Source of the DNA: Cochliopodium minus
Taxonomy: Eukaryota > Discosea > Himatismenida > Cochliopodiidae
DNA: 58,027 bases
Assembly (NCBI GenBank): GCA_024220525.1
Contig: JAMYWO010000012.1
Location: 1 to 58,027, forward strand
Direction: 5' to 3'
In this document: piece after piece, positions 11,031 to 32,040 of the stretch
Layout: every line of letters starts with the position of its first letter
Numbering within the stretch: the stretch's first letter is position 1
The notes under the pieces: generated by a model
Told to the model about the DNA's origin: nothing
Seen by the model: the letters and a program-made list of their open reading frames with translations, nothing else
The model's database searches: none
Program-made: the position numbers and the translations under genes

Positions 11031-14000
11031 ATGAATAACGATCCTCCATTAATTACTTCGAGGACACGAAGAAATACTGGAACTCAGAATACACATAAAA
11101 CATCATATCTAACCTTTGGTTTTGATTTGGTAAATTTTTATAAACAAATTAATTCTTTTATTCAAAGAAGCTGATAATTTTCTCAAAATAATGATGGTAG
11201 AAAAATTGTTTCAAGGATCTTATAATGGAAATCAAATTCAAAGAGAAGAAGAAACCATTTGTAGAGAAATATTCATTTTCATTAAAGGATGTATTGACAT
11301 ATTTTAAAGAGAAATATGGTTTATCAAAGGATGATTCAATGAATCTTTGTCAGAAAATGATTGAAAAAGAATGGATAGAGCCAATAGATTCAGATGAAAA
11401 AAAATTTAGTTCGAGATCTATTTATCGATTGGTAAGAAATCAACAATAAAAAAAAGTTCAACAAATTTATTTTATCTATTTTCATATATCAAGACCAAAA
11501 AGTCAATTCAAAATTCAGAATTTTCATTTGTATTGAAATATACAAAGAATGGAGAATCAGAATCAAATTTGGTCAGCACATTCAATGATATGAAAAGCAA
11601 ATTGACTGTCACAAATTTCAATGATGTGAAGAATGATAAATTATATAAAAATTGCATCACTGGGAAGGCTATCGCAGATCATTTGGAATTGGAATTATCA
11701 TTATCAAGGCATCAATCAAAAGAATTATCAAATATAATGTTATCCAAGTAAGAAAATAAAGAATTATCTAAAGATTTATTCTAAATTTATTCACATAAAA
11801 AAAAAAAAAACAAGTAATTTGATAAGACAAATTGAATTCTGTAACCATTTCGAAGATAGTGAGGAACAATATTATTTCCTCAATTTTCCAACCACATTAA
11901 AAGAATTCATTATTCCAGATTCAACAGTGGATGATTACAAAAACGTATTTTTTTCAAGAAAAAGAGCCATTCTTGTCGAGACAACCCAAAACTTACCGAT
12001 ATTTCATTTAGAGCTAAAAGGAGCAAACAAGTGGTTCTCAAAGTTCAAGCTTTGGAAGACTATTTACCATCCAAATCACACTGGAATTCACTTATTGTTT
12101 AAAGATGGAATTAATGCATATTTTATGCAAGACAGGAAATGTATCCCTTTTTCAATCCTCCTAGAAAAATATGATACATCCACCAGTACCAAAAAAAACA
12201 TGAAAAAAATCAAGTTTAATAAAACAACGGGAGTGGACAATTTGGATTATGATGAAGAATATGTTAAGAAGATTGCGCTTTCTCTTTTTTCTTTTCTAAG
12301 TTATCTTCATACACAGGGTATTGTTTATGGAGACATGGATTTGAGTCACATAGCTATCACTCAAGAGAAGCAGATCACCATCACAACTTCACTCGAAATG
12401 TCAAGATCTAAAACAAAAACCAAACTTGTGAATTGTGCACCTGAAGTTTTATCTGGAAAGTACAGTTCTGCTTCTGATATTTGGAATGCAGGTATTTTGT
12501 TGTATATTCTGTTGTTTGGAGCGTATCCTTTTTCTACTGACTCGGAGGAAGTTCTAAAAAATGACATTATTAACAAAAACATCAATTTTCCAGTTTCTTC
12601 TATCAACTCTGTTTCTAAATATGCAAAGGAGCTTATTCAAAAGTGTTTGGAGAAAGATATAAATGAAAGAATCATCGCATCAAATTGTTTGGAGCATCAA
12701 TGGATCAGAGGAGGAAGAAACTCAGAGGCAGAATTTAATAAATCGGAAGATATTGACAACAGTTATTTCAAGAATCTCCTTGAACAAGTTTTCAAACTGA
12801 CTAAGAAACTTGAAAACTTGAAATTCAACAAGTATGTTCGTTCAAGGTTTTCTGTCATATCTGACGTTCTCTTTGAAAAGGAAAAGTCTTACGTCTCCCA
12901 AAACATTTTGCTCAATAAAATCAAAATGCTCAGAAAGAAAACTTTTGATATAGAGCAAGTCACTTCTATTCTCGTTATTGGACCAAAGGGATGTGGGAAA
13001 AAGACTTTTGTCCAAACCATGATCAGCTCTATTTTCAAAATGGATGTAACTTCAGAAATCAGTTTCATAAATGGATCCAAGATGAGACTTTTCAATTTCA
13101 AGCACCAGACCACTTTATACAAATTTATCATTTTGGATGTACCTAACCCCGAAAACATTGATTTTCCCTTTCAAGACGAGATAGAGAAGGACTTTAAGAA
13201 TGATGGTTTGAATTTCGATGGTGCAAATGAGAGTTTTCCAAATTTGACAATGAAGAGAATTGGAGAGAAAGCAAAACTTCCCCTCTCCCATAATTTGTTC
13301 AACTTTAAAAAATCAAATCTTTTCAAAGATTCTTTTTCTCTCAGACAATTTAGCTGGCACAGTAACTTTGCAGAACTGACTGGTATTCTCTTCTTTTCTA
13401 ATTGCGAAGATTTCTACAATGACACAACCATCAACAACGAAACTTTGGAATTTTTCAAAAGTTTGATTGATTCTAATTTTTTCAGTAACGATCAATCCAT
13501 TTTCGGGAATATTCCTATCACTGTTATTGTAAACAAATCTGATAAAAAACCCAACCTCAACAAACTTCAAATCAAAAAACAATTTATGAGTCTTGTTCCT
13601 GATTTCTCTTATCATCTTAGATCTCAAGTCATCTTTGCTTCTATTTTCTCGGAAGAAACAATGAAACTTATTTTTACATCTGTTGAAAACATGGAAAATT
13701 GTTTCGCCAAAAACGACTCCAACAACATCTTTCAAAATTCTGAAAACGAAAAGATTGAATCATTGATAATGAGAGAAAACAAATCACTAAAAAATTTGGA
13801 GATCAATGTATTCAAGACCATTTCTTTCAAGTACCTCAAGAGATTAGAATTAATTGGAATGAAAAAGATATTCGAAACAAAATCTCTTAACAGCATTATC
13901 TACCAACTCAAGGACAGTTTGTTGGAATATCTGGTTTTGGCAGGAGAACAGTTCCCCCCTAGTGTCATAAAAACTTTGGAAGAGTACTTGGAACATCCAG

Positions 14001-17000
14001 ATTGTTACTTAAGATATTTGAAAATGATCAACTTGAAACTCTCAAATGAAAATGTACTCAAAATATTGAATTCTATTTCCAAAAATGCAACTTTGATCGG
14101 ATTGGATCTTTCCAGCAATGCAATAAATAATGAATGTATCGATAAGTTGACCCAAATCACAATCAACAATTCTCTAAGTGAGATTTACCTCGCTAACTGT
14201 TCAATGAATGACGATAACTACTCTTCTCTTTCTAGTCTAATTAATTACAGTCAAAGTTTGAAAACACTAGACATTTCCGAAAATCATTTTTCTATCTCTT
14301 TCATCAAAAAAATCATTGAATGTGCACAATCCAACATAAATCTTCCTCTTTGCAATTTTAGTTATTCTGTCAACGAATCTCCTCCTCCCTTAGTTTGTTT
14401 GAAGATAAACTCTATTTTGTTTAAAAACAGAAAGAATCTGATGAGAGATTATGTCTTCAAAAAGGTTTTTGAGACCAAGAAAATACCTTCTTTTGTTGAT
14501 AAAGTCATTCCTAATTCTCCCCTAACTTCCATTGCTGTTGAAAAGATTCTTCTAAATTATCAAGGTGTAAACCAAATAGAGATTATGACAGAAAATAGCC
14601 TTAAATTGATAGAAAGTAAATTTTTGAAAGTGAAAAGACCTTCTATTAGTGATCTCCAAAAATTAGAAGATGAATACAACAATTCTGTCAAATCTGAAGA
14701 TAAATCTCCTGTCAATGATCCAATCCTTAGATTTTTTTCTAAAGATACCAAACTTGAAGAGATTGATTTCCATAAATTAGATCTTTCTTGGTTTAGGCTT
14801 TCCAATAGAAACATCCCTCCTGAATTAACTCAATTCAAGTTTAGTGATTCTGAATACTCTTTTGATTTCTTAAAGATAATTGATCTTTCTCACAATCAAC
14901 TCACTGAGATCCCAAAACAAATTTTAAATCTCAAAACTGTTGAGCAACTTTTTGTGGGAAATAACAATATAGATACAATTTCACCAGATATCTCCAATCT
15001 TTCAACACTCATCACACTTGATCTGAGAAACAATATTATCACAAGAGTCCCTGAATCTCTTTCCAAACTCACCAACCTAAAGAATTTATTCCTTCATTTT
15101 AATAACATCCATTATATAAGACCTTGTATTCTTGGTAATCTCAAAAAACTGGAAAAGCTCACTCTCCATAGTAACTTTCTGTATTCCCTTCCTCTTGATT
15201 TGTTTGAAAAATGTAAGAATGTCAAAGAATTTTCAGCGTTCGACAACAAATACGACAACTTGAAAAAAGATTGTTATGAAGTATGGGGAAACAAGAAGAC
15301 AAAACTGAATTGGAGCTCAAACTCTATTGAAAACTTGCCATACGAGATCTATTTGATGAGTGAATTGACAGAGTTGGATTTGAGCAATAACAAGTTGAAG
15401 TATTTACCTCCTCACATCTCTTCACTTACAAACTTGAAGAAACTGGATTTGAGAAACAACAACTTGACAGAACTTCCTTTTCAAATTTGCCATCTTCTCT
15501 TTTCCTTGGAAGCCCTTCATATTTCAGGCAATAATAATTTGAGATTGCCAAAAGATTTGATTGTTCAATCCGACAAACCAATTTCAATAAATCAATACTC
15601 TTTGTTGACCAGCTTCTACGAGAATTATGAAAAACAACTCTTACAAAGAAAGACTGTTACACTTTGCGTGTTGTTTGATGATGATAATGATTTCAGATAC
15701 TTTACAAATGAATTTTTCCAAAGCACTGTACCAAGCAAAAAGGTTTCGAATGGAGATATTGATAAAGTAATTGAAAACTATGATGTGAGAAAGTCAAAGA
15801 GGATATTCGAAAAATCCTACCAAAATCTACACAACTTTGAAGTGAGCTTCGACTCTTCTTTCCAGAGTGAATCTGAAGAGATCATTCCTTCTCAAGAACA
15901 AATCATGCAAATGACCATGAAAAGATTTGGTAACGAAAGTTACATCAATCTAAACGAAGCGTACGATTATTACAAAGTGATGGAATTTCCAGAGTATGAA
16001 ATTAAATTCAAGATAATAGGATTCAATGATCAATCTTTATTCCATCATTATTCTTCTGTTCTTGGAGAAGATAACGATCATATCTTTGTTGTAATCTCCA
16101 ATTTTTCTGAAAATGTCAATGATCTAAGCTCCAAACTTCAAACGATTAGATCTACTCAAAAAGGACCTATAGTTATCTTGGGATCCAAAGGAAACAATGT
16201 TAACCAAAAGAAGAGAAAGGAGATCGAAATAAGTATCAGCAAAAAGTTTTCAATGGTATTCAACAACATTCAGGGATTGTGTTTTATGTTGCCAACCAGT
16301 TTCAAATGGTTCATGGGAGTTGCAACAAAGTTGATCAATCAATTTCCAAAAGTATCCAATCAACAGTTACAATTGGAGAGCATGATTGAATCGGAAGCAA
16401 ACTTTTATTCTCCTTATCCCATCATTAAATACTCCCAATTCAAGAAAATTGCAAGAGGATGCGGAATCAAAACGAATACAAAGAATATTTTGGAAACTTG
16501 CCACAACAACGGATCTCTTTTGTACTTTAACCCAACAAGCTGGGGAGAAAACAAATTGGTCATCTTGCAACCGTTTTTTATCGTCACATTATTTTCTCAT
16601 GTCATCAATTACTCAAAGAGATCGAATGGGATCTTGGATATGTATGGCTGTTATTCCGAGTTTATCGGCCACGATACAAATCTCTTCTTTTCTCCCATGT
16701 GGATCTTGAGTTTTACAAGATTCATCCAAAAAACAGAGATAGTATTGGATTTCCAAAGCAACAAATCCAATATCAAACAGTTCAAAAAAGTTGTGAAAGA
16801 AGAAACATTCAAATCCAAGCTTTTTGTAGTTCCATCTCAACTCCCTGTACTAAAATACGATTGGGAAACAATCACTGATTTGTGGGAAACTTTTGATGAT
16901 CTTGCATTCAAACAACCCTTTGATCTTCCTGAGCTCCAACTCTCTCCATCTATCGAAAAAAAGATAGATGAAAGCATAATGACCGAAATCTCATATGAAT

Positions 17001-18842
17001 ACGTCAATGATGTTGAAGAAGATATTCAAATTGAAAAGTGGTATTTCTTAGGGATATTCTCTTATCCAATTTTCAACAAGCTGTTGTTCCAAATGATTAA
17101 AATTTCAGGTAATCATTTATTTTTTAATCTTTTTAAAAATCATCTTAAACCATATTAATTCTCGGTAGGCGTAAAGTTATTTAGATTGTGGGAGACATGT
17201 GCCATCTTCAAATTGAGTCAATCATCAACATGTGTGATCGGGGTTTTCAAGGATGAATCAGGTTCCTTCATCAGATTCAAAATCAAAGGAACCTTGATCC
17301 AAAATCACTTTTTCATCTTAGATGATCTCATAGAAACAGTACTTAAAGTGTTCACAACAAGATCCAAAATACCAATTTTTTATACGGTGGTTCCATTGTA
17401 CAATTGCTCCATCTTCTCTTTAATTAAAACGGTCGTACTTGAGACTGCAATCATGGAGAAAAAAAAATACATCACCTGTCCCTCTTGTTCTATCGACTTT
17501 TTAGAGCACGAAATTAGAACCTCTAAGATTGCTCCTTACCTTTTGTTGAAACAATATCAGGATCTAAGAATCAACCCAAAGCACGTAATGGATAAAATGG
17601 AAATTGCAAAGGGAAGTAGGGCTGTGATTTACAAGGCTTTGTTGACTACAAGTAATTCAAAAGTTGTAGTAAAAGAGATGGACTTGGATGATTTCACTGG
17701 TGAAAATGAAATTCATAACTTGATGGATAATTGGAGGTTAAAAAAAAAAAACTTTAAAATAATTTAAAATATTCAACTTTTTATTCTTTAAAAATTACAG
17801 GAGAGAAGTGAGCATGCTTTGTATTTTAAGTGGAAAACCAAACATCATCGAAATAAAGGGATACACACTTTATCCTCATTCGATCATCATGGAGTTTGCA
17901 GAATTTGGAGATCTCTCTCAATTCCTCAAATCTCCTCATTCCCAAAAGATGACATTGTTGGAAAAGTACAAGATTGGTGAAGATTTGGCCCGAGCACTTG
18001 ATGTTTTACATTCTTTTCAACCAAAGATTGTTCATAGAGATGTCAAAAGTTTGAATGTTTTGGTCACTCAGTTGATTCCTTTGACTGTGAAGCTGAGTGA
18101 CTTCGAAACTGCTTGTTTCGTTCCTCATTATGCTACTGGAAGAAGTATCATTGATAATCCTGTTTGGATGGCACCTGAACTAATTTTGGGATTGAGGTAA
18201 AAATTTAAAAACTTTCAAAAACAATAAAATAAGTCAAGATCTTTTGATTGAATATCCTTTCTCATTTTAATTTAAAATAATCAAACAAGATATAAAAGAA
18301 ATTTTTTAGATTTACCTTTTTACAAATCTTTTTTACTTTTGATTAGATACAATGAAAAAGTGGATATTTACAGTTTGGGAATCGTTTTGTGGGAAATACA
18401 TACAAGACAACTTCCTTTTGAAGATAACAATTCTTTTAGCTCTGAATTGGAAAAAAAGATATCCCTCCACAATCTTCGCCCAACAATAGACAAAGTGAAC
18501 GGAAACTGGGACAACAACTACATCACTTTGATGGAATCATGTTGGCATGAAATCCCTTCTTGTAGACCTTCTGCCAAAGATATCCTTACTGAATATTCTA
18601 AATTGAAATCAGGAGAACATGTTGACTTTTCCGTTATTGATCATAAGACTAATGAAGATGATGGTTTTCAATTGATCATCCCTGAGATGTCTTCTATCAG
18701 CGCTCCCAAACGTAATTATAATAAGCAAGATAAGAGAAAGGTCTCTTTCAACGAACGTCCTTCCGAGATTGATATTTGGATTGATACTAATACCCACATT
18801 GATATCAATCAATCTTCCTCATCTGAGGATTATGATTTCTAA
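11031..18842 (+). CDS. Roco-family protein 1: DEP-DEP-pseudokinase-GTPase-LRR-Roc-like-COR-kinase
   Basis: Seven exons: 11031-11129, 11201-11431, 11494-11747, 11815-17108, 17169-17736, 17801-18196, 18347-18842, about 2445 residues. Two DEP-like modules come first (EIKFKEKKKPFVEKYSFSLK...; ITGKAIADHLELELSLS). Then a degenerate kinase (SFLSYLHTQGIVYGDMDLSH, CAPEVLSGKYSSASDIWNAG), a GTPase with P-loop GPKGCGKKT and G4 VNKSD, RI-type LRRs, leucine-rich repeats with the LxxLxLxxN pattern, a Roc-like region without a P-loop, and a COR region (ILETCHNNGSLLYFNP). The C-terminal TKL kinase has HRDVKSLN, WMAPE, and DFE in place of DFG. Known Roco proteins couple GTP binding to kinase output; regulation by the N-terminal modules is inferred. 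A close paralogue lies at 20565-28762. Confidence 0.88.
15101..15669 (+). repeat. 569-bp tract identical to 24945-25513 (LRR region of both Roco genes)
   Basis: By line-by-line reading the 569 bases here match 24945-25513 base for base, including all synonymous sites. The sequences on either side differ at many positions. It covers the second LRR block and the start of the Roc-like region. Such a sharp block inside diverged paralogues is the mark of recent gene conversion or unequal exchange. Confidence 0.88.
17109..17168 (+). other. intron present only in Roco 1
   Basis: This 60-base GT-AG intron splits a glycine codon in the COR C-terminal part of Roco 1. At the aligned site in the paralogue (around 26977) coding sequence runs through without interruption. 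This is an intron gain or loss since duplication. All other intron positions seen in the pair match in position and phase. Confidence 0.75.
17801..18426 (+). repeat. kinase exon-intron tract nearly identical to 27603-28223
   Basis: The first 292 bases match 27603 onward exactly, then a short diverged patch around the activation loop, then near identity again through the end of the exon, the whole 145-150 base intron (a few substitutions and indels) and the start of the last exon, where similarity stops abruptly. Conservation of intron sequence argues for recent DNA transfer between the copies rather than selection on protein. Confidence 0.88.
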
Positions 18843-20564: not shown

Positions 20565-23500
20565 ATGATCACAAATACATCCACAAGAAGAACATTATCC
20601 CTTATTTTAACACAAAAGATCCAAAATGCACCATTTACTTTTGGATTTGATTTGGTAAAAGAAAATAACATGATATTTCATTTAAAGGGATAATAATTTT
20701 ATGTGGTAGAAAAATTGTTTCAAAGATCTAATATTGGAGATAAAATTCAAAGGAAAGAAGAAACATTCACTTCCCTATTCATTTTTATTAAAGGATGTGC
20801 TGTTTTATTTTAAAGAGAAATATGGTATATCAAGAGAAGATTCAATAAATATATGTCAAAAGATGATTGAAATAGAATGGATAGAGTCAATAACATCAGA
20901 AGAGAGAAAATTGAACGATAGATCGATTTATAGATTGGTAAATAACATATGGGAAATTTTTTTTTCTCCAGACATATTTTTAACACGATAAAAAAATCAT
21001 TCATCTATATTGGAGATATATCTTCTAATATACAATTGACATTTACATACAGTGTATGGTGTGATTCGCATAATTATGCAAATTATTTTTCCTTATGAAA
21101 ATTCAAAATAATTTTATCAACCTTTCAATCAAATTTAAATTCGTATAAATAATTTAACCAATTCAAAAATAATTCATCCTTCTCAATAAAAGACAAATAA
21201 AGCAATTGAATCAATCGAGTTTTCATTTTTGTTCAAGTATATGAAAAATGGAGAGACGGAATCGAAATTGATGGATCATTTTAAAGAAATGAGGGAAAAG
21301 ATAGTACTAAATAACAATTTAGACCCAATATCTGGAAATATATACAAAATGAGTGTATCGGGAAAGACAATAACAGATTGTTTAGAATCATCATTTCTAT
21401 TATCGAGAGAACAATCAAAAGAATTGGGAGAGATGTTCATAACGAAGTAAATTTAAAAAAATTAAATAAATCTTTAATTCTTCATATAAATATTTCATAT
21501 TTTATAATTATTGACAAAATCCCTTCGATTTTCAAATCTTCTTTTTTTAGCAAATTGATAAGGCATGCAGAATATTCAAATCATTTTGAGGATAAAGAAG
21601 ATGAATTTTATTATTTGTGGTATCCAACATCAATTGGAGATTTCATGATCCCAGAAACATCAATGGAAATGGAAGAAAACATAACTGTGAGAATAAAACA
21701 TGCAGTTCTTTTGGAATCAATGCAAGAGATGCCATTCCTGTATATAGATACAAAGGAGATTAAAAAATGGCAATCTTGTTATTCTATCTGGCAAAACTTG
21801 TACCACTTCAATCACATTGGCATACATAGCCAATTCAAAGATCATAACAATCTAATCTTTGTGCAAGACAAAAAGTTTACAAGTTTACACAAGATTCTCC
21901 AATTTATCAACAACAAAGAAAACTTTAATAATGTAAATATTTTTAAGAGGGAGACCTACAATCAAACAGAGGAGGAGACTCTCTTGTACGACGAAGAATT
22001 TGTCAAGAACATTGCCTTCTCCGTCTTTTCTTTTCTCAGTTATCTCCACAAAAAAGGGGTAGTTTTTGGAAACATGACTCTCAATCACATTGTTTTCACT
22101 CACGAAAAAAAAGTGGCGGTCACTACTTCTCTTGAGATGTCTAGATCAAAAACAAAAACCAACCTTATTTATTGTGCACCTGAAACTTTTAGTGGTCAGT
22201 ACAGTTCTGCTTCTGATATTTGGAATGTGGGGATATTATTGTATATGTTATTGTTTGGAGCATACCCTTTTTCCACTGACTCAGAAGAAGTTCTCAAAAA
22301 TGACATTATTAACAAAAGAATCATCTTCCCTCAAAATTCACACGAATGTGTTTCTAAAAATGCAAGAGATTTCATTTTGATGCTTCTCGACAAGAATTTT
22401 TCAGAAAGGCCCATTGCTTCTAACTGCTTGTCATTCGAATGGTTCAAGAATTCAAATTCCTCCTCTTCTGAAAGCTTTGATGTTAGTACTTCTATTGAAG
22501 AAAAACAAGACATCGACGAAAAACAGGACACTGTAGATGAAATCTCTTGGTTCAAGAATCTTCCTTCTCAAATATTGTCCATCAACAACAAAATCAATTC
22601 CTTAAAATTCAACAAGATGATCAAAACAAAGTTTTCTGTTGTTTCAGATATCCTCTTCGAAAAAGAAAACAGAGTCCAACCTTTACCTCTTCTTTTCGTC
22701 AAATCAACTCCACCTCCCAAGAAAAGAGTACAATCGAGTGGTGTAGTCAAAATCTTGGTAGTGGGTCCTCCTACCTCGGGAAAAAAAACAATCATCAACA
22801 AATTGATTTTCCAAATCTTCAAAATATCTGTGGAACCAGATATTACCATAATCAACAACTCTTCCATGGCTGTCTACTCTTTTCAACACTCCAATATCAC
22901 CTATATGTTCATTATCTTTGATCTTCTTATTAAAGTAGATCCATTTCTCGCCCCTAAAAAACTTTCTAGGAAATCTTATTCGCTCACAAACATTAGAAAG
23001 AAATCTATAGAAGAGAGTTTCTCCCAAAGCTTTGTAAATTTGACTAGACTCGATACAAAGAGTGTAACGATTGAATATGATCCTATAAACTGGCATTATC
23101 ACTTTGCCGAACTGAGCGGTATCTTCTTTTTATCAGATTGCGAGCTTTTCACGAATGAAACAGATGCAAACAAAGATTCTTTGGATTCCTTCAAAAGTCT
23201 AATCGATTCTAATCATTTTAGCAATGATATTTCTATCTATGGTAACATTCCGATCACAATAATCGTAAATAAGTGTGATACAAGACCTAATCTCAATAAA
23301 AACTCTATCAAAAATCAATTTATGAATCTTTTACCTGATTTCTCTTATCATCTCAGATCACAAGTCATCTTTGCTTCTTCCAATTCAGAAGAATCTCTCA
23401 GACAAATTTTTTCTTCAATAGAAGTGATGGAGCTAAAGTTTTCAAAGTATGACATCCAAAATGTTTTGATCAATTCAGAAAAGGAAAAACACGAATCAAT

Positions 23501-26500
23501 CATCTTAAGGGACACTCGTTCTTTAAAAATATTCGATGTCAATGTTTTCAAGACTATTTCTTTCAAATACCTCAAGAGATTTGAATTAATTGGAATGAAA
23601 AAGATATTCGAAACGAAAACCCTGAATAGTATCATCCACCAGCTCAAAAACAGTTTACTTGAGTATCTACTTTTTGCAGGAGCTACTTTTCCAGTAGAAT
23701 CCATCAAAACTTTGACAGATTACCTCGAGCAACCAAACTGTTCTCTCTTTCACTTGAAAATGATAAACGTAAAGTTATCCACCGAAAGTTTAAATAGAAT
23801 TATCCTCTCCATTTCTAAAAACGCCAATTTGTATGGAATCGATTTTTCAAGCAACCAAATTGATACAGAAACCCTCAAAAAATTGTTTGAATTAGTGATC
23901 AACAATGATTATCAAGAGCTCTACCTTTCTAATTGTTCAATGAATGACGATAGCATAGAAACTTTCACTTCTCTTTTGAAATACAGTTATAGCTTGAAAA
24001 CTCTCGATATTTCCGAAAATCAATTCTCCACTTTCTTCATCAAAAAAATGGTGGACATTGCACAATCGAATATCACTCTTCCTCTTTGTAATTTTAGCTA
24101 TTCAGTGCTCAACTTCAACTCTCCTTTCATTTCTCGCCAAATCAACAGTTTGATCAAAGAAAACAGAAAGAATCAGTTGAGAGGATTAGAATTTGAAAAG
24201 ATTTTCGAAAAGAAAAAAGTTTCAGACAAAATAGAGAAGCTCATGCCTTCCACCCCCTTGAGTTCGATCGTGCTTTACAGATCATTGGAAAGTTACAAAG
24301 ATTCAAAGTTGATGGATATCATTTCTGCTAAAAGTTTGAAAATCATAAAAAACAAAGAATCCTCGAGAGACAGTGACATGATTTCTCCAAACAAGTCAAA
24401 CTCTTCTCCTGTTGTAAACGAGAAATCTTTTTCTTTGAAAACAAGTGGAAAGTTGAAAAGTGCATCTTTCTTTTTGAAGGAAGAAGATACTTCCGATACT
24501 AAAGTTTCTTTTGACTTTGACTCTACAGGTGACAAAAGCAGTGTAAATGAAAACCTTCTTAGTTTCTTTGAGAAAGACGAGAAAAAAAAGAATGATGAAC
24601 CAGTGATAAACTTCAACAAACTGGACCTCTCTTGGTTCAACCTCACCAACCAAAACATCCCAAAAAATTTGATAGAATTCGATTATTTCGAAACAGAATA
24701 CAATTTTGAAAAATTGAAGATCATTGATTTTTCTGCCAACAACTTGGATGAGATTCCAAAACAAATTCTAAATCTCAAGTTCGTTGAGCATCTTTACTTG
24801 GGAAGCAACAACATAGAAACAATTTCACCAGATATCTCTAATCTCTCAACACTCATCACACTCGATCTGAGAAACAACCTTATCATAAGAGTCCCTGAAT
24901 CTCTTTCTAAACTCACCAACCTAAAGAGTTTATTCCTCCACTCAAATAACATCCATTATATAAGACCTTGTATTCTTGGTAATCTCAAAAAACTGGAAAA
25001 GCTCACTCTCCATAGTAACTTTCTGTATTCCCTTCCTCTTGATTTGTTTGAAAAATGTAAGAATGTCAAAGAATTTTCAGCGTTCGACAACAAATACGAC
25101 AACTTGAAAAAAGATTGTTATGAAGTATGGGGAAACAAGAAGACAAAACTGAATTGGAGCTCAAACTCTATTGAAAACTTGCCATACGAGATCTATTTGA
25201 TGAGTGAATTGACAGAGTTGGATTTGAGCAATAACAAGTTGAAGTATTTACCTCCTCACATCTCTTCACTTACAAACTTGAAGAAACTGGATTTGAGAAA
25301 CAACAACTTGACAGAACTTCCTTTTCAAATTTGCCATCTTCTCTTTTCCTTGGAAGCCCTTCATATTTCAGGCAATAATAATTTGAGATTGCCAAAAGAT
25401 TTGATTGTTCAATCCGACAAACCAATTTCAATAAATCAATACTCTTTGTTGACCAGCTTCTACGAGAATTATGAAAAACAACTCTTACAAAGAAAGACTG
25501 TTACACTTTGCGTCCTTGTTGAAAGTGAAGCAGATTTTAGATACTTTACAAATGAATTTCTAGTTTTTCAGAGAAAGAGTTCTTTTGAAATCACCTTTGA
25601 TGCAAACAAGAGCATGGAGAGTTCTCCCATCTTCAAACCAATCAGAATCACAGATTCCAAAATAGCAGAGTTTGCAAGTAGCAGCATGAGAGCATTCCAA
25701 CAAAATTCAAATGAATCAGAGGAAACCCTAAACATATCACATGAAAAGATAAAGGAATTTGCAAAGAAGATGAAAGTCAACTCTCTCAAAAAACTTGAAA
25801 TCGGGAAAAACAATTTCTACAGAGAAATAGATGTTCCCATTTATGATCTTAAATTCAAAGTGATTGGCTTCAACGATAATTCTTTGTTTCACTTTTATTC
25901 TTCCATTCTTGGAGACAGCAATGAAAACATTTTTGTTGTCATTTCTAGTATTTCTGGGAATGTGAGTGAACTTGGATCTAAGCTTCAAACAATCAGATCT
26001 ACTCAAAAAGGACCTGTTGTTATATTGGGAAACAATGCGAGCAAATACAACCAAAAAAAGAGAAAAGAAATCGAAGTGGCAGCAACCAAGAAGTTTACAG
26101 GAATCTTTCAGAACATAATTGGTCTTTCTTTCATGGTCACACAGAACACAAAATGGTTCATCAGACTGATCTCGAAAACTGTTGCTAAATTCGTCAAGGT
26201 ATCTCCTGAACAATTACAACTAGAAAACATGATAGAGATTGAAGCAAACTTTCTTAATCCTTTTCCCATCGTAAAATACTCTCAGTTTTACAACATTGCA
26301 AAGGGATGCAGTTTAAACAATCGTAAGATCAAAACTCTCCTGGAAACTTGCCAAAACAGTGGTTCAATTGTTTATTTCAACCCAACTAACTGGGGAGAAA
26401 ACAAAATTGTGGTTCTGCAGCCTTTTTTTCTCGTTATATTGCTTTCACATGTCATCAATTACTCAAAGAGATCGAATGGAATCTTGGATTTGTATGGATG

Positions 26501-28762
26501 TTACTTGGAATTTATTGGAAATGATACCAATCTCTTGTTTTCTCCCATGTGGATCTTGAGTTTTACAAGATTCATCCAAAAAACAGAATTTGCTTTTGAT
26601 TTTTGCGGAAATGATACGATCTATCTCCAATTCAAAAAGGTCTGTAAAGATACAGGCAGTGGACATATGAGCAAAATTTTTGTGGTTCCATCACAACTTC
26701 AAGAAACAAAATACGATTGGGAAACAATCACTGATTTGTGGGATACCTACGACTTTTATCATCAACCCAAAGAAGATAATCACTCGGAGAAGAACGATAA
26801 AATTTCTGTTTTGCAAGAAATCAAGAAAGATTTTTTCTTCAGAGACAGCATTGATACCTATTCGATTTCGGGAGATGATGATATCGAAGTAAAACTGGTG
26901 GAAAAGTGGTATTTCCTCGCCATTTTCTCCTACCCAATTTTCAACAAGCTGTTTTTTCAAGCATTAAAGATAAATGGTGTGCAAATCTTGCGCTTTTGGA
27001 AAAAGACGATTCTCTTCAGAATAGAAAACAACTGCTTCGCAATCGGAGTATTCCCCGAAGAATCAGGCTACTTCATAAAGTTCAAAGTGAAAGGGATCAA
27101 AGCGCAATACTACTTTTTCATCATCGACGACATCATAGAAACACTCCTCAAGGTTTACATGAGCTCATCCAAAATACCCACTTACTATGGAGCCATTCCT
27201 AACAATAGTTGTGAAGAAACATCTCTTATCAAAACTCGTGTTTTGGAGCATGCAGTCTTTGAACAAAGGAAATTCATCCAATGTCCTTCTTGTTCGCTTG
27301 ATGGTGTAGAACATTTTCTCTTCACTTCTAAAATTGCTCCTTTTCTTTCTTTGAAGCAATTCCAGGAGTATCTCGCCTCTCCCAAACAGATTTCTAACAA
27401 GGAGGAAATCGCCAGAGGAAGCAGGGGGATCATTTACAAATCCAATTTTTCCAGATCTAATTCCGTCATCGCATTAAAAGAGTTTCATATCGAAGATGTA
27501 AATTCTCTTGATGAAATCTCTCAACTCATCGGATGTTGGAGGTAAATAAAAAAAGAAAAAGATTTATTTTTAACAAATTTTTTTCATTCTTTTATTTAAC
27601 AGGAGAGAAGTGAGCATGCTTTGTATTTTAAGTGGAAAACCAAACATCATCGAAATAAAGGGATACACACTTTATCCTCATTCGATCATCATGGAGTTTG
27701 CAGAATTTGGAGATCTCTCTCAATTCCTCAAATCTCCTCATTCCCAAAAGATGACATTGTTGGAAAAGTACAAGATTGGTGAAGATTTGGCCCGAGCACT
27801 TGATGTTTTACATTCTTTTCAACCAAAGATTGTTCATAGAGATGTCAAAAGTTTGAATGTTTTGGTCACTCAGTTGATTCCTTTGACTGTGAAGTTGAGT
27901 GACTTCGAAACTGCTTGTTTCGTGCCTCATTTCCACACCGGAAAATGTAATATTGATAATCCTGTTTGGATGGCACCTGAACTAATTTTGGGATTGAGGT
28001 AAATTTAAAAACTTTAAAAAACAATACAATAAGTCAAGATCTTTTGATTGAATATCCTTTCTCATTTTAATTTAAAATAATGAAACAAGATATAAAAGAG
28101 ATTTTTGAATATCCTTTTACAAAATCTTTATTTTTTTGATTAGATACAATGAAAAAGTGGATATTTACAGTTTGGGAATCGTTTTGTGGGAAATACATAC
28201 AAGACAACTTCCTTTTGAAGATACAGACCTTTTCAACAACGAATTGGAAAGAGAAATCGCAATCAACGGGCTGCGTCCAAAAATAGATCAGAAGAACAAG
28301 GAATGGGACCACAACTACGTCTGTCTTTTGAAATCATGCTGGTCAGAAGTTCCCTCTTTCAGACCTCCTGCAAACGAAATAGCAAACGAACTTTCAAAAC
28401 TAAGAGAAGGTCAAAATATAGATCTTTCAAGTTTACATAGAACTTTGGATGTTGATGCTTATGACATGTCTACTTCCACTGATACCAATTTTACTCCAAC
28501 TATCCGCAAAAGACTTTTCATGAATAGAAAGAGAGGGAATACTTTGGATAAGGCTCAACTTTCTGATAGTCTTTTGAATTACAACCCTTTGAACTTGAAA
28601 CAGAAAAAGAGATCTTATTTGACTTTGAAAGATAAGAGTTCTGTCAATCATTTTGAAAAGATCATGTGGTTGGAGACTCCCCGTAGTTCTAATCTTCAGA
28701 GCAACATTGAGGAATCTATGAATCAGTTTGAAGAAATTTTTGAGGAAAATGAAGATAATTAA
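20565..28762 (+). CDS. Roco-family protein 2, tandem paralogue of Roco 1
   Basis: Six exons: 20565-20654, 20710-20937, 21193-21446, 21551-27541, 27603-27998, 28144-28762, about 2525 residues. Domain order is as in Roco 1: two DEP modules, pseudokinase (KKGVVFGNMTLNH in the place of HRD; CAPETFSGQYSSASDIWN), GTPase with P-loop GPPTSGKKT and G4 VNKCD, RI-type LRRs, a longer acidic/Ser linker near 24360-24600, leucine-rich repeats, Roc-like region, COR, and a TKL kinase with HRDVKSLN, DFE and WMAPE. Exon 3 has the same length (254 nt) in both genes. The kinase glycine loop is better kept here (ARGSRGIIYK) than in Roco 1 (AKGSRAVIYK). The C-terminal tail after the kinase is unrelated to that of Roco 1. 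Confidence 0.88.
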
Positions 28763-28977: not shown

Positions 28978-29854
28978 ATGATTGGGGACTTAACAAGTGA
29001 AGAAGATATTTTAACTATTTCAGATAATGTGATAGAAATAGAAAATTCCAATGAGAATGAACAGGATAATGATGAGAATGAAGAGAAGGAGAATGAAATT
29101 GATATGAATAAAGAGAAAATTAAATCACAATTGAGAATGAGAAAATTAATAAAGAAAGAAACTCCTCAAATAATAAATTTATTGGTTAAAAGTTTTTCAA
29201 AATCAAAGAGATTTGATTACGTACTTCATGATGAAACAGTTGAATTGTCAGAAAATTTTTTATCAAAGATATTCCTCGAAAATCTAAATTGGTCATTCAA
29301 AGAACATGATTGTATTTATGGTGAGAATATTTTTCTTTAAATTTTTCTTTCTTTGAAATTTCAATAATTTTAATTTCGAAAAAAAAGGAATATATTTGAA
29401 AGAGAAATTGATAAGTGTTATTATAATGATACCTCCTGATTCGAAAAATACAATAAGTTTTGTAGAATCAATGAAATTCGTTGTAAAAAATTTTAAAGGA
29501 ATAGATCTTTTGAAAAAATTAAAAGTTTTAGCAGACTTTGTACACAAACCTTATTTGCAATACACCAAAGAAAAGAATATAAAGCATTATTTCTTGTGGT
29601 ATATCGCAACTGATATTCAATACAGAAACACGGGAGCTTCAACAATGCTGATGGAATTCTTGTGCAATAAGTTTGATATTGCAAAGATACCCTGCATCCT
29701 TTACACTTGGGACGAAACAAAAATAGAGTATTTTAAAAGATATTCTTTTGAGAATTTTAAAGATTTAGAAATAACAGAAGAAAGACAAAAAAAGTATCCT
29801 GATGTTCCAAAGGCTTTTTATATGATAAGAGAGCCAAAAAATAATAATAATTAA
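28978..29854 (+). CDS. GNAT-family N-acetyltransferase
   Basis: Two exons, 28978-29320 and 29388-29854, about 269 residues. The ATG sits behind an A-rich leader. An acidic Asn/Glu-rich N-terminus of about 45 residues precedes a GNAT fold: KKETPQIINLLVKSFSKS (helices 1-2), ISVIIMIPPDSK (beta strands), HYFLWYIATDIQYRNTGAS with the acetyl-CoA-binding segment that follows (QYRNTGASTMLMEFL, a variant of Q/RxxGxG/A), then ILYTWDETKIEYFKRYSFENF, the usual strand-helix pair where the side chain of the acceptor site lies. The substrate is unknown. Confidence 0.8.
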
Positions 29855-29921: not shown

Positions 29922-32040
29922 TCACAAACCACCCGAGTTAGAAATAACAACATTTTTAAGAGGAGTTCCCTTCTCAGAACCTTCTCTCTCAATATTTTTG
30001 ACAATGTCCTGACCATCAATGACCTCACCAAATACAGTATGTTTATTATCAAGCCAATCACAAACAACAGTTGTCAAGAAAAACTAAAATTAGTTAAAAA
30101 AAAAAAAAAGAAATAATTAGTAAAAAATTAAATTTAAAATTTTAAAAATAATTTTTACTTGAGAAGAGTTTGTATCTTTTCCTGCGTTTGCCATGGACAA
30201 CAAGAAAGGTTTGTCGTGTTTCATGATAAAGTTTTCATCCTTGAAAGAACTACCATAAATAGATTCACCACCCCTTCCATTACCAAGAGTGATGTCACCA
30301 CCTTGAACCATAAAGTTGGGGATGATTCTATGAAACTTGGAACCCTTATAATGCAAAGGTTTACCAGTGTTCTTGCTCAAAGTGTTACCAACACACAAAG
30401 AATAAAAGTTTTTACAAGTTAAAGGGACAACTTCATCGAACAATTCGAAGACGATTCTCCCTGCAGGCTTGTTGTCGATTTCGACGTCAAAATAACACCT
30501 GGATCTCTTGGTGACGGTCCTCTCGGCACTTCTGTCTCTGCTAGTCTTTCTCTTTTTGGGAGATTGGCTCCTGTTTCTCCTTTCGTCGCGATGTCTTTCG
30601 TCACGATGTCTATCATCTCTTCTTTCATCTCTTCTTTCATCTTTGTATCTATCATCTCTTTGTCTGTCATCCCTATTTTCTCCAACAACAGAAGATGTAG
30701 ATGTGGGTTGATTCTCAGAAGGAGGATGTGTGGAAGAGGAGGAAGAAGGATGCTCACTCCTTTTTTCATCTTTGTATCTATCTTCTCTGCTTGATCTTCT
30801 TTCTCTGCTGCTTCTTTTCTCCCTGCTCCTTCTCTCATAACTTCTGTCCCTGCTTCTTCTTCTTTCGTAACTTCTGTCCCTGCTCCTCCTTCTTTCGTGA
30901 CTCCTGTCCCTGCTGCTTCTTCTCTCCCTTCTATCATCATATCTGTCTCTGCTTCTACGATCCCTTCTATCATCATATCTGTCTCTGCTTCTACTTCTAG
31001 ATCTACTTCTCTTACCCCTATATCGATTTTTAAAAAGGTTAATAAATTTATATTGGAAATAAAAATATTTAAGAGAAGGATGCATGAATATAGGATGTAT
31101 AAAAATATTAAGGAATAGTTTGAAATGTGATTTTTTTTTTTTTTTTACCCACATTTTCTGATCAATTCATTTTTGAGAGATCTATCGATAGGCCTCATAT
31201 GCATGAAATTACAAAACCCTCCACGATTGCATCCCTGTTTCTCAAATTGTCTGCACTTTGCTTCCCTAAAGTTAGTGACGGGAGAGAATTCAGGCAAGAT
31301 GGGCCTCTTATCATAGAATCTTCCCTTCAAATCTTTCAAGGCATCTTCGGCATGTTGTTCCTCAAAGTATTTGACGTAGACATTTCCAAGTAAATGTTCA
31401 CCAAGGTTAGAACAAACTACAAGATCATCTATCTCTCCATATTTGGACAATTCCTCCCACATATCCAAGTAGAACTCTTCAAAATCCTCTTGTAGAACCT
31501 TTTCTGTGATTTGTGGATCTTCCACTCCCAATGCTAGTTGTTTTTGTTGTGGATCAAGATATAAATTGGGCATCATCACTGTTGGACTCAATGATGGGAT
31601 GTTGTGTATTCTGCTGCATCTTTCTCCGTGTCTGCATGCTCCTATTTTGAAATAAAATGAACAATTGACCCTATAATTTGTTTATGATTTGGCGAGAAAA
31701 GAAAAATAGAAAAGTTAATAAAGAAGAAAAAACAAAAAGAAATTATCTTGTTAGTTTCAAAAAAAAAAATTATAATTCTCCAAAAAAATATAAATAGACC
31801 TAAAAAAAAAATTTTTTAAAAAGAAGAAGAAAATATATGCTTTTTTTTGTATTATTGTATTGATAGATGGCTATTAAACCTAAAAATCTATAATGCTAAA
31901 TTTTTTTTATCAAAACAAAATTTATATAAAAAAAATTTGAGAATTTTTTTTTTTATTTACTTGTCCTTTTCTGTGCAAAAAATGGATGCCATGTATTCAG
32001 CTCCACCTTCATCTTCTTCTCCACCTCTATGATCTCTCAT
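29922..32040 (-). CDS. U2AF35-RS-cyclophilin fusion protein
   Basis: Four exons: 32040-31961, 31670-31149, 31017-30159, 30083-29922, about 540 residues. The N-terminal half is the small U2AF subunit: [20 protein letters not shown] across intron 1, CCCH finger 1 ([11 protein letters not shown]), a UHM-type RRM (GNVYVKYF), and finger 2 ([19 protein letters not shown]). An RS domain of about 160 residues follows. The same uninterrupted exon then continues into a cyclophilin: [34 protein letters not shown], with Arg, Phe, Gln, Trp and His of the prolyl-isomerase site all kept. U2AF35 recognises the 3' splice-site AG; cyclophilins are common spliceosome partners, so one splicing factor with built-in isomerase activity is inferred. 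Confidence 0.87.

Follow-up and report, generated by a model that had tools for sequence, protein, structure and literature searches.

A Probable Fusion of the U2AF Small Subunit with a Cyclophilin in Cochliopodium minus

Organization of the Gene

The window, by which is meant the whole 58,027-nucleotide stretch of Cochliopodium minus DNA analysed here (contig JAMYWO010000012.1, positions 1 to 58,027), is about 72% A+T. On its minus strand, from 32040 to 29922, lies a gene whose best spliced frame encodes 540 residues in four exons, separated by three GT–AG introns and ending with the stop codon at 29922. This frame was retained after all GT–AG boundaries on the minus strand within a few bases of the junctions named in a first-pass annotation had been tried. 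The features of the gene are as follows.

31961..32040, minus strand: exon 1; start codon and U2AF35 residues 1–26, with an acidic extension ahead of the conserved stretch
31671..31960, minus strand: intron 1; 290 nt, GT–AG, phase 2, weak acceptor
31149..31670, minus strand: exon 2; zinc finger 1 (residues 26–50), UHM (about 56–157) and zinc finger 2 (C166–H184)
31018..31148, minus strand: intron 2; 131 nt, GT–AG, phase 2, weak acceptor, separating finger 2 from the RS domain
30159..31017, minus strand: exon 3; RS/RD linker, residues 202–371 (about 31016–30507), and cyclophilin residues 372–487 (30506–30159), in one open frame
30084..30158, minus strand: intron 3; 75 nt, GT–AG, phase 0, within the cyclophilin at Gln|Phe
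29922..30083, minus strand: exon 4; cyclophilin residues 488–540 and stop

The order of domains in the 540-residue frame is zinc finger 1, UHM, zinc finger 2, RS/RD linker and a full cyclophilin. The first-pass annotation had joined U2AF35, an RS domain and a cyclophilin in a single gene model, and this frame, with the Pfam and homology matches described below, bears that model out. As had also been claimed, the three splice junctions keep frame, and exon 3 is unbroken from the RS stretch into most of the cyclophilin. No methionine occurs in residues 186–436; thus a stand-alone cyclophilin would have no ATG start in exon 3 before its own core. The linker comprises 172 residues, with 29 RS or SR dipeptides, 40 RD, DR, RE or ER dipeptides, and five prolines.

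The intron phases given above were derived from the exon lengths. Introns 1, 2 and 3 are 16, 18 and 7% GC, respectively, and the exons 36–42%. At the junction of exons 1 and 2 (EKDK|VNCSFY), homology to Schizosaccharomyces pombe U2AF23 runs across the join. The suggestion that the junctions lie at conserved positions holds for intron 3: the cyclophilins of contigs C28 and C6 also have a phase-0 intron at this Gln|Phe, which C380a and C380b lack.

The U2AF Small Subunit and Its Partner

Pfam models matched in the 540-residue protein are zf-CCCH (7e-11), RRM_1 (4e-4, exactly at the cut-off) and Pro_isomerase (5e-46); the second CCCH finger, scanned alone, reaches 23.2 bits, above its cut-off of 20.5. 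The match to S. pombe U2AF23 (9e-62, 212 bits) spans residues 14–196 and takes in the UHM as well as the two fingers; the UHM of human U2AF35 is matched at 2e-20. The succession of CCCH finger, UHM and CCCH finger in one chain, by which membership in the U2AF small subunit family was judged, is present. In the alignment with U2AF23 the acidic helix of the UHM is kept, and the sequence RFY stands here where the human protein has RWF and U2AF23 has RWY. We take the R-x-F motif and the acidic helix to be the elements that bind the ligand tryptophan of the large subunit. In the human structure Trp134 of U2AF35 packs on the ligand region of U2AF65; phenylalanine occupies that position here.

A search of the host assembly (44,654,751 bases, or 44.65 Mb, in 598 contigs) with the exon 2 protein returned two matches, the fused gene and a divergent copy on contig C533 (73 bits). 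The latter looks ZRSR2-like, although no ZRSR2 entry was matched. On these matches no canonical U2AF35 other than the fused gene was found in the genome, and the fused gene is not a ZRSR2 paralogue.

The gene for the large subunit, U2AF65, lies on contig C25 (loci L032/L033). It encodes RRM1, RRM2 and a UHM-like third RRM, and ahead of RRM1 a UHM-ligand-like motif, KKRSNKWD, can be recognized by eye. Its RS domain contains a run of RSSRER repeats. In human U2AF65 the ligand tryptophan is followed by a proline run; the corresponding segment in this genome, KKRSNKWDTQPTEEEM, has no such run after the tryptophan. The first-pass annotation had suggested a proline-rich SF1/U2AF65 interface as a possible target of the isomerase. 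That suggestion is not supported, since U2AF65 lacks the proline run and the reciprocal tryptophan of U2AF35 is replaced by phenylalanine. SF1 itself was not matched in the host genome with two Pfam models, neither of which proves its absence: one matched no control, and the other matched three bacterial controls, none above the cut-off.

The Cyclophilin Domain

The C-terminal part is a full-length peptidyl-prolyl isomerase domain, aligned to positions 1–156 of the 159 in PF00160 (5e-46). Over its 169 residues 160 distinct solved sequences were matched, and the comparison draws on the 60 best of them. The top match is 1qng (4e-68, 232 bits), which we take to be Plasmodium falciparum CypA; among those best 60 of 160, PPIG scores 211 bits and the PPIE entries 184–185. 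The domain is thereby assigned to the CypA class. All ten active-site positions that were checked are identical to CypA (R55, F60, M61, Q63, A101, N102, F113, W121, L122 and H126, in human CypA numbering). The statement in the first-pass annotation that the key residues are intact therefore stands. The tryptophan that we associate with cyclosporin binding is kept in the fused cyclophilin and is missing from a cyclophilin on contig C72. Selection for catalysis or for the binding of a ligand would be expected to leave such conservation, and the fused cyclophilin would be predicted to have enzymatic activity.

The relationship of this domain to the other cyclophilins of the genome is only loosely defined. 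There are at least 29 cyclophilin matches, a lower bound, on 14 contigs. The closest by identity are C380a (105/169) and C28 (104/169); the intron at Gln|Phe is shared with the second of these. Sixteen cyclophilin domains were aligned, from which C29, C75, C216, C93, C45a and C45b, and then C356 and C6, were dropped as partial or poorly aligned. In the resulting tree of nine rows none of the six inner branches is well supported, and the best grouping is with the C49 copy (88/92). The gene on C356 (L018/L022) is cyclophilin-like; it differs at eight of the ten active-site positions that were checked and has a stop within its spliced alignment, itself doubtful. It is perhaps a decayed or diverged copy.

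The C72 gene looks, by eye, like an ordinary SR-cyclophilin separate from the fusion: the cyclophilin comes first, RS-rich open frames follow downstream on the same strand, and its cyclophilin matches PPIG at 1e-65, although PPIG is not the top match. This usual order agrees with the earlier observation that the fused gene has the opposite one, its RS stretch preceding the cyclophilin.

At least 131 RRM matches, again a lower bound, were found in the genome. The UHM of the fused gene alone adjoins a cyclophilin, the next closest pair being 32.7 kb apart, and no RRM-cyclophilin of the PPIE or PPIL4 type was seen among the 131 RRM and 29 cyclophilin matches. This test of adjacency is a weak one: the counts are lower bounds, short RRM exons or intron-split genes can be missed, and the cyclophilin on C216 starts 568 bases from its contig end, where an adjoining domain may have been lost from view.

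It is possible that the fusion is real but that its cyclophilin is a non-catalytic binding or folding module, or a passenger acquired by chance, so that U2AF35 works as usual. With only five prolines in the linker there is no plain substrate at hand, the large subunit has no proline run to offer, and the genome has other complete cyclophilins. We nevertheless regard this explanation as unlikely, if worth keeping in mind, and the retention of all ten checked active-site residues argues against it.

Splice-Site Strength and Intron 2

The one join in the model that rests on splicing is the removal of intron 2, and this is its weakest link. For comparison, 60 introns of the same genome were collected by spliced alignment of cyclophilin, tubulin and U2AF65 genes. 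Excluded were intron 3 of the gene itself, one intron of the C356 gene, a tubulin intron that was a duplicate, and two U2AF65 introns judged improbable. The two tubulin genes on contig C33 (L042, L043) stand in tandem about 2.3 kb apart; they are alpha-like by reading, and their aligned proteins and intron ends are identical.

The donors of introns 1, 2 and 3 score as high as or higher than 49, 43 and 51 of the 60 reference introns, respectively. The corresponding figures for the acceptors are 3, 6 and 53, which marks the first two as weak. Both fell below all members of an earlier, smaller reference set of 29 introns, which used a shorter acceptor window, and both lie within the range of the set of 60. 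Intron 1 is fixed by homology, yet its acceptor is as weak as that of intron 2; weak acceptors thus do occur in this gene. A strong acceptor-like AG is found at 31641, 29 nt inside exon 2; it scores 9.9, whereas the acceptor at 31670, which homology supports, scores 0.5. Its use would shift the frame and remove part of zinc finger 1.

Several properties of intron 2 are those of an intron. Its GC content of 18% lies inside the range of the reference introns (3–23%), which reach 418 nt in length, and its removal joins finger 2 to the RS run with a spacing like that which we take to be found in animal U2AF35. Other properties leave room for a different reading. With intron 2 retained, the frame would run into a stop immediately after exon 2. 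The intron is also open in the frame of exon 3, a state that dinucleotide shuffles reach in 2.6% of cases; of the 33 reference introns that are 100 nt or longer, one is open in any frame. The open stretch of intron 2 contains an in-frame ATG, from which a separate RS-cyclophilin might in principle be translated. The lack of an interior AG in intron 2 was considered as support for splicing and dropped, since mononucleotide shuffles lack one in 35% of cases. On balance intron 2 is presumed to be spliced.

Two explanations turn on this intron. In the first, a single gene would produce both forms, the splicing of intron 2 choosing between a short U2AF35 without RS domain and the long U2AF35-RS-cyclophilin. 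The stop directly after exon 2 would yield a protein like U2AF23, the two weak acceptors are each followed by G, and the AG at 31641 competes with the acceptor of intron 1. Such a switch may depend on U2AF itself, given the weakness of the acceptors of both intron 1 and intron 2. Weak consensus scores are, however, no evidence of regulation, and 31641 falls within the conserved CSFYF codons, where the AG may be incidental. A regulated switch of this kind seems improbable.

In the second, two genes would lie head to tail: a short RS-less U2AF35 ending just after exon 2, as U2AF23 does, and a cyclophilin with an N-terminal RS region starting at the ATG in intron 2. The immediate stop, the open intron and its weak acceptor are all compatible with this arrangement. 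So too are the short gaps that occur here: the stop at 29922 is separated by 67 nt from a facing open frame, which ends at 29854. S. pombe U2AF23 is reported to have no RS domain and to be essential (PMC8624252). Against this, the supposed leader of the second gene, at 18% GC, is AT-rich and intron-like beside an exon of 42% GC; donor, acceptor and phase all fit at the borders where GC content changes; and there is little room for a terminator and a promoter. The two-gene arrangement is accordingly judged quite improbable.

An assembly artefact joining two RS-encoding genes is highly improbable. RS-coding DNA is repetitive and carried by several genes, and the DNA search for copies skips simple repeats; but a search with the 538-nt RS DNA found, besides the gene itself, a single matching place, which covers 84 query bases at 80% and belongs to a gene read as U1-70K, and the join lies, with its frame unbroken, inside a 305 kb contig.

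Relation to Known Proteins

The protein resembles the U2AF small subunit (human U2AF1/U2AF35, S. pombe U2AF23) in its two CCCH fingers flanking a UHM, and the animal proteins in the RS domain that follows. It differs in the cyclophilin after the RS domain, in the phenylalanine that replaces the contact tryptophan of the UHM, and in the acidic N-terminal extension. With the SR-cyclophilins (PPIG/SRcyp, NKTR, and the plant CYP59 type with RRM, zinc knuckle and RS/RD tail) it shares the combination of an RS/RD region with a cyclophilin in a single chain. Here, in contrast, the RS region comes before the cyclophilin, U2AF35 stands in front, and the cyclophilin is of the CypA class with its tryptophan kept; an N-terminal cyclophilin followed by an RS tail, as in the PPIG type, is not what is found. 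In PPIE (CypE/Cyp33), too, a cyclophilin is preceded in the same chain by an RRM-type domain, and the protein is connected with splicing. The fusion has CCCH fingers and an RS linker, whereas PPIE presumably has a plain RRM without either; the fused gene shows neither the single plain RRM before the cyclophilin nor a best match to PPIE.

A related arrangement has been published for Caenorhabditis elegans, in which an operon is reported to contain uaf-2 (U2AF35), an RRM/cyclophilin gene and sfa-1 (SF1). This is a genetic link between U2AF35 and a cyclophilin, but the proteins are separate and there is no fusion. The first-pass annotation knew of no described case, and full-text searches of openly licensed papers led to no U2AF35-cyclophilin fusion that we recognized; the operon is nonetheless a precedent for the idea that the annotation had missed. 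The gene name cyp-13 does not occur in the papers that a search for a link between U2AF35 and cyclophilin brought up. In the apicomplexa, cyclophilin tables list proteins with RRM, SYF2, WD40, RING, FKBP and tetratricopeptide parts, and the term "U2AF" is absent from the main text of the paper that contains these tables (PMC2713222).

The exon 2 protein gave 5 pattern matches in viral contigs and 39 in bacterial and archaeal genome contigs, none of which was confirmed. These searches covered viral, bacterial and archaeal collections rather than eukaryote genomes, and say little about the same domain order elsewhere.

A Proposed Tethered Isomerase at the 3′ Splice Site

The comparisons above suggest that this is probably a real fusion of known parts, in a domain order for which no record was found. 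We place at roughly 0.7 the probability that the gene encodes one protein, an ordinary U2AF small subunit with a CypA-class cyclophilin at its RS end, and that it acts as follows. The zinc fingers and UHM would bind the AG of the 3′ splice site and U2AF65, by analogy with other eukaryotes. The flexible RS/RD linker would hold the isomerase inside the early (E/A) spliceosome, so that a tethered isomerase would be brought to every 3′ splice site bound by U2AF, and prolyl isomerization or chaperoning would be delivered there in cis.

That the cyclophilin acts within the spliceosome, and on what substrate, we infer. Proline-containing parts of nearby RS/SR proteins are, we think, likelier substrates than the contact between U2AF35 and U2AF65. 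Cyclophilins occur in spliceosomes, where the step at which they act and the proline acted upon are largely open, and other eukaryotes have separate spliceosomal cyclophilins. A natural fusion to the reader of the 3′ splice site would tie a peptidyl-prolyl isomerase to one defined step. It also offers a direct experiment, in which the cyclophilin is mutated or drugged and the choice of 3′ splice site is read out. An isomerase gated by RNA would be a fair subject for such a test, since RNA is reported to shift the activity of two RRM-cyclophilins in opposite directions, raising that of human CypE and repressing that of AtCYP59 (PMC7641896).

A stronger form of the proposal is that isomerization is an obligate and stoichiometric part of 3′ splice-site recognition, with a cyclophilin on every U2AF heterodimer. 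Such a protein may replace PPIE, and it would reveal a partnership at which the C. elegans operon hints. This stronger form is doubtful; were it true, splicing should be sensitive to cyclosporin at the step of the E/A complex. If transcripts confirm the fusion, the operon link in C. elegans becomes a case for a physical partnership. If they refute it, the locus is an ordinary pair of neighbouring genes.

Other Features of the Window and the Genome

One Fe-hydrogenase-type locus is present in the host genome. Within the window, two giant open frames lie in tandem on the plus strand, at 11738–17158 and 21315–27545. Each has an N-terminal kinase domain, a P-loop-like stretch recognized by eye, and leucine-rich repeats, and the kinase looks inactive by eye, with altered HRD and DFG motifs. 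The second frame has a COR-A match below the cut-off (23.5 against 35.3 bits) and is followed by kinase exons at 27574–28762. From these features the two frames look Roco-like. An 866-nt block over the leucine-rich repeats is 93.9% identical between them, and three other matching blocks are 72–79% identical; the difference suggests recent gene conversion between the two frames.
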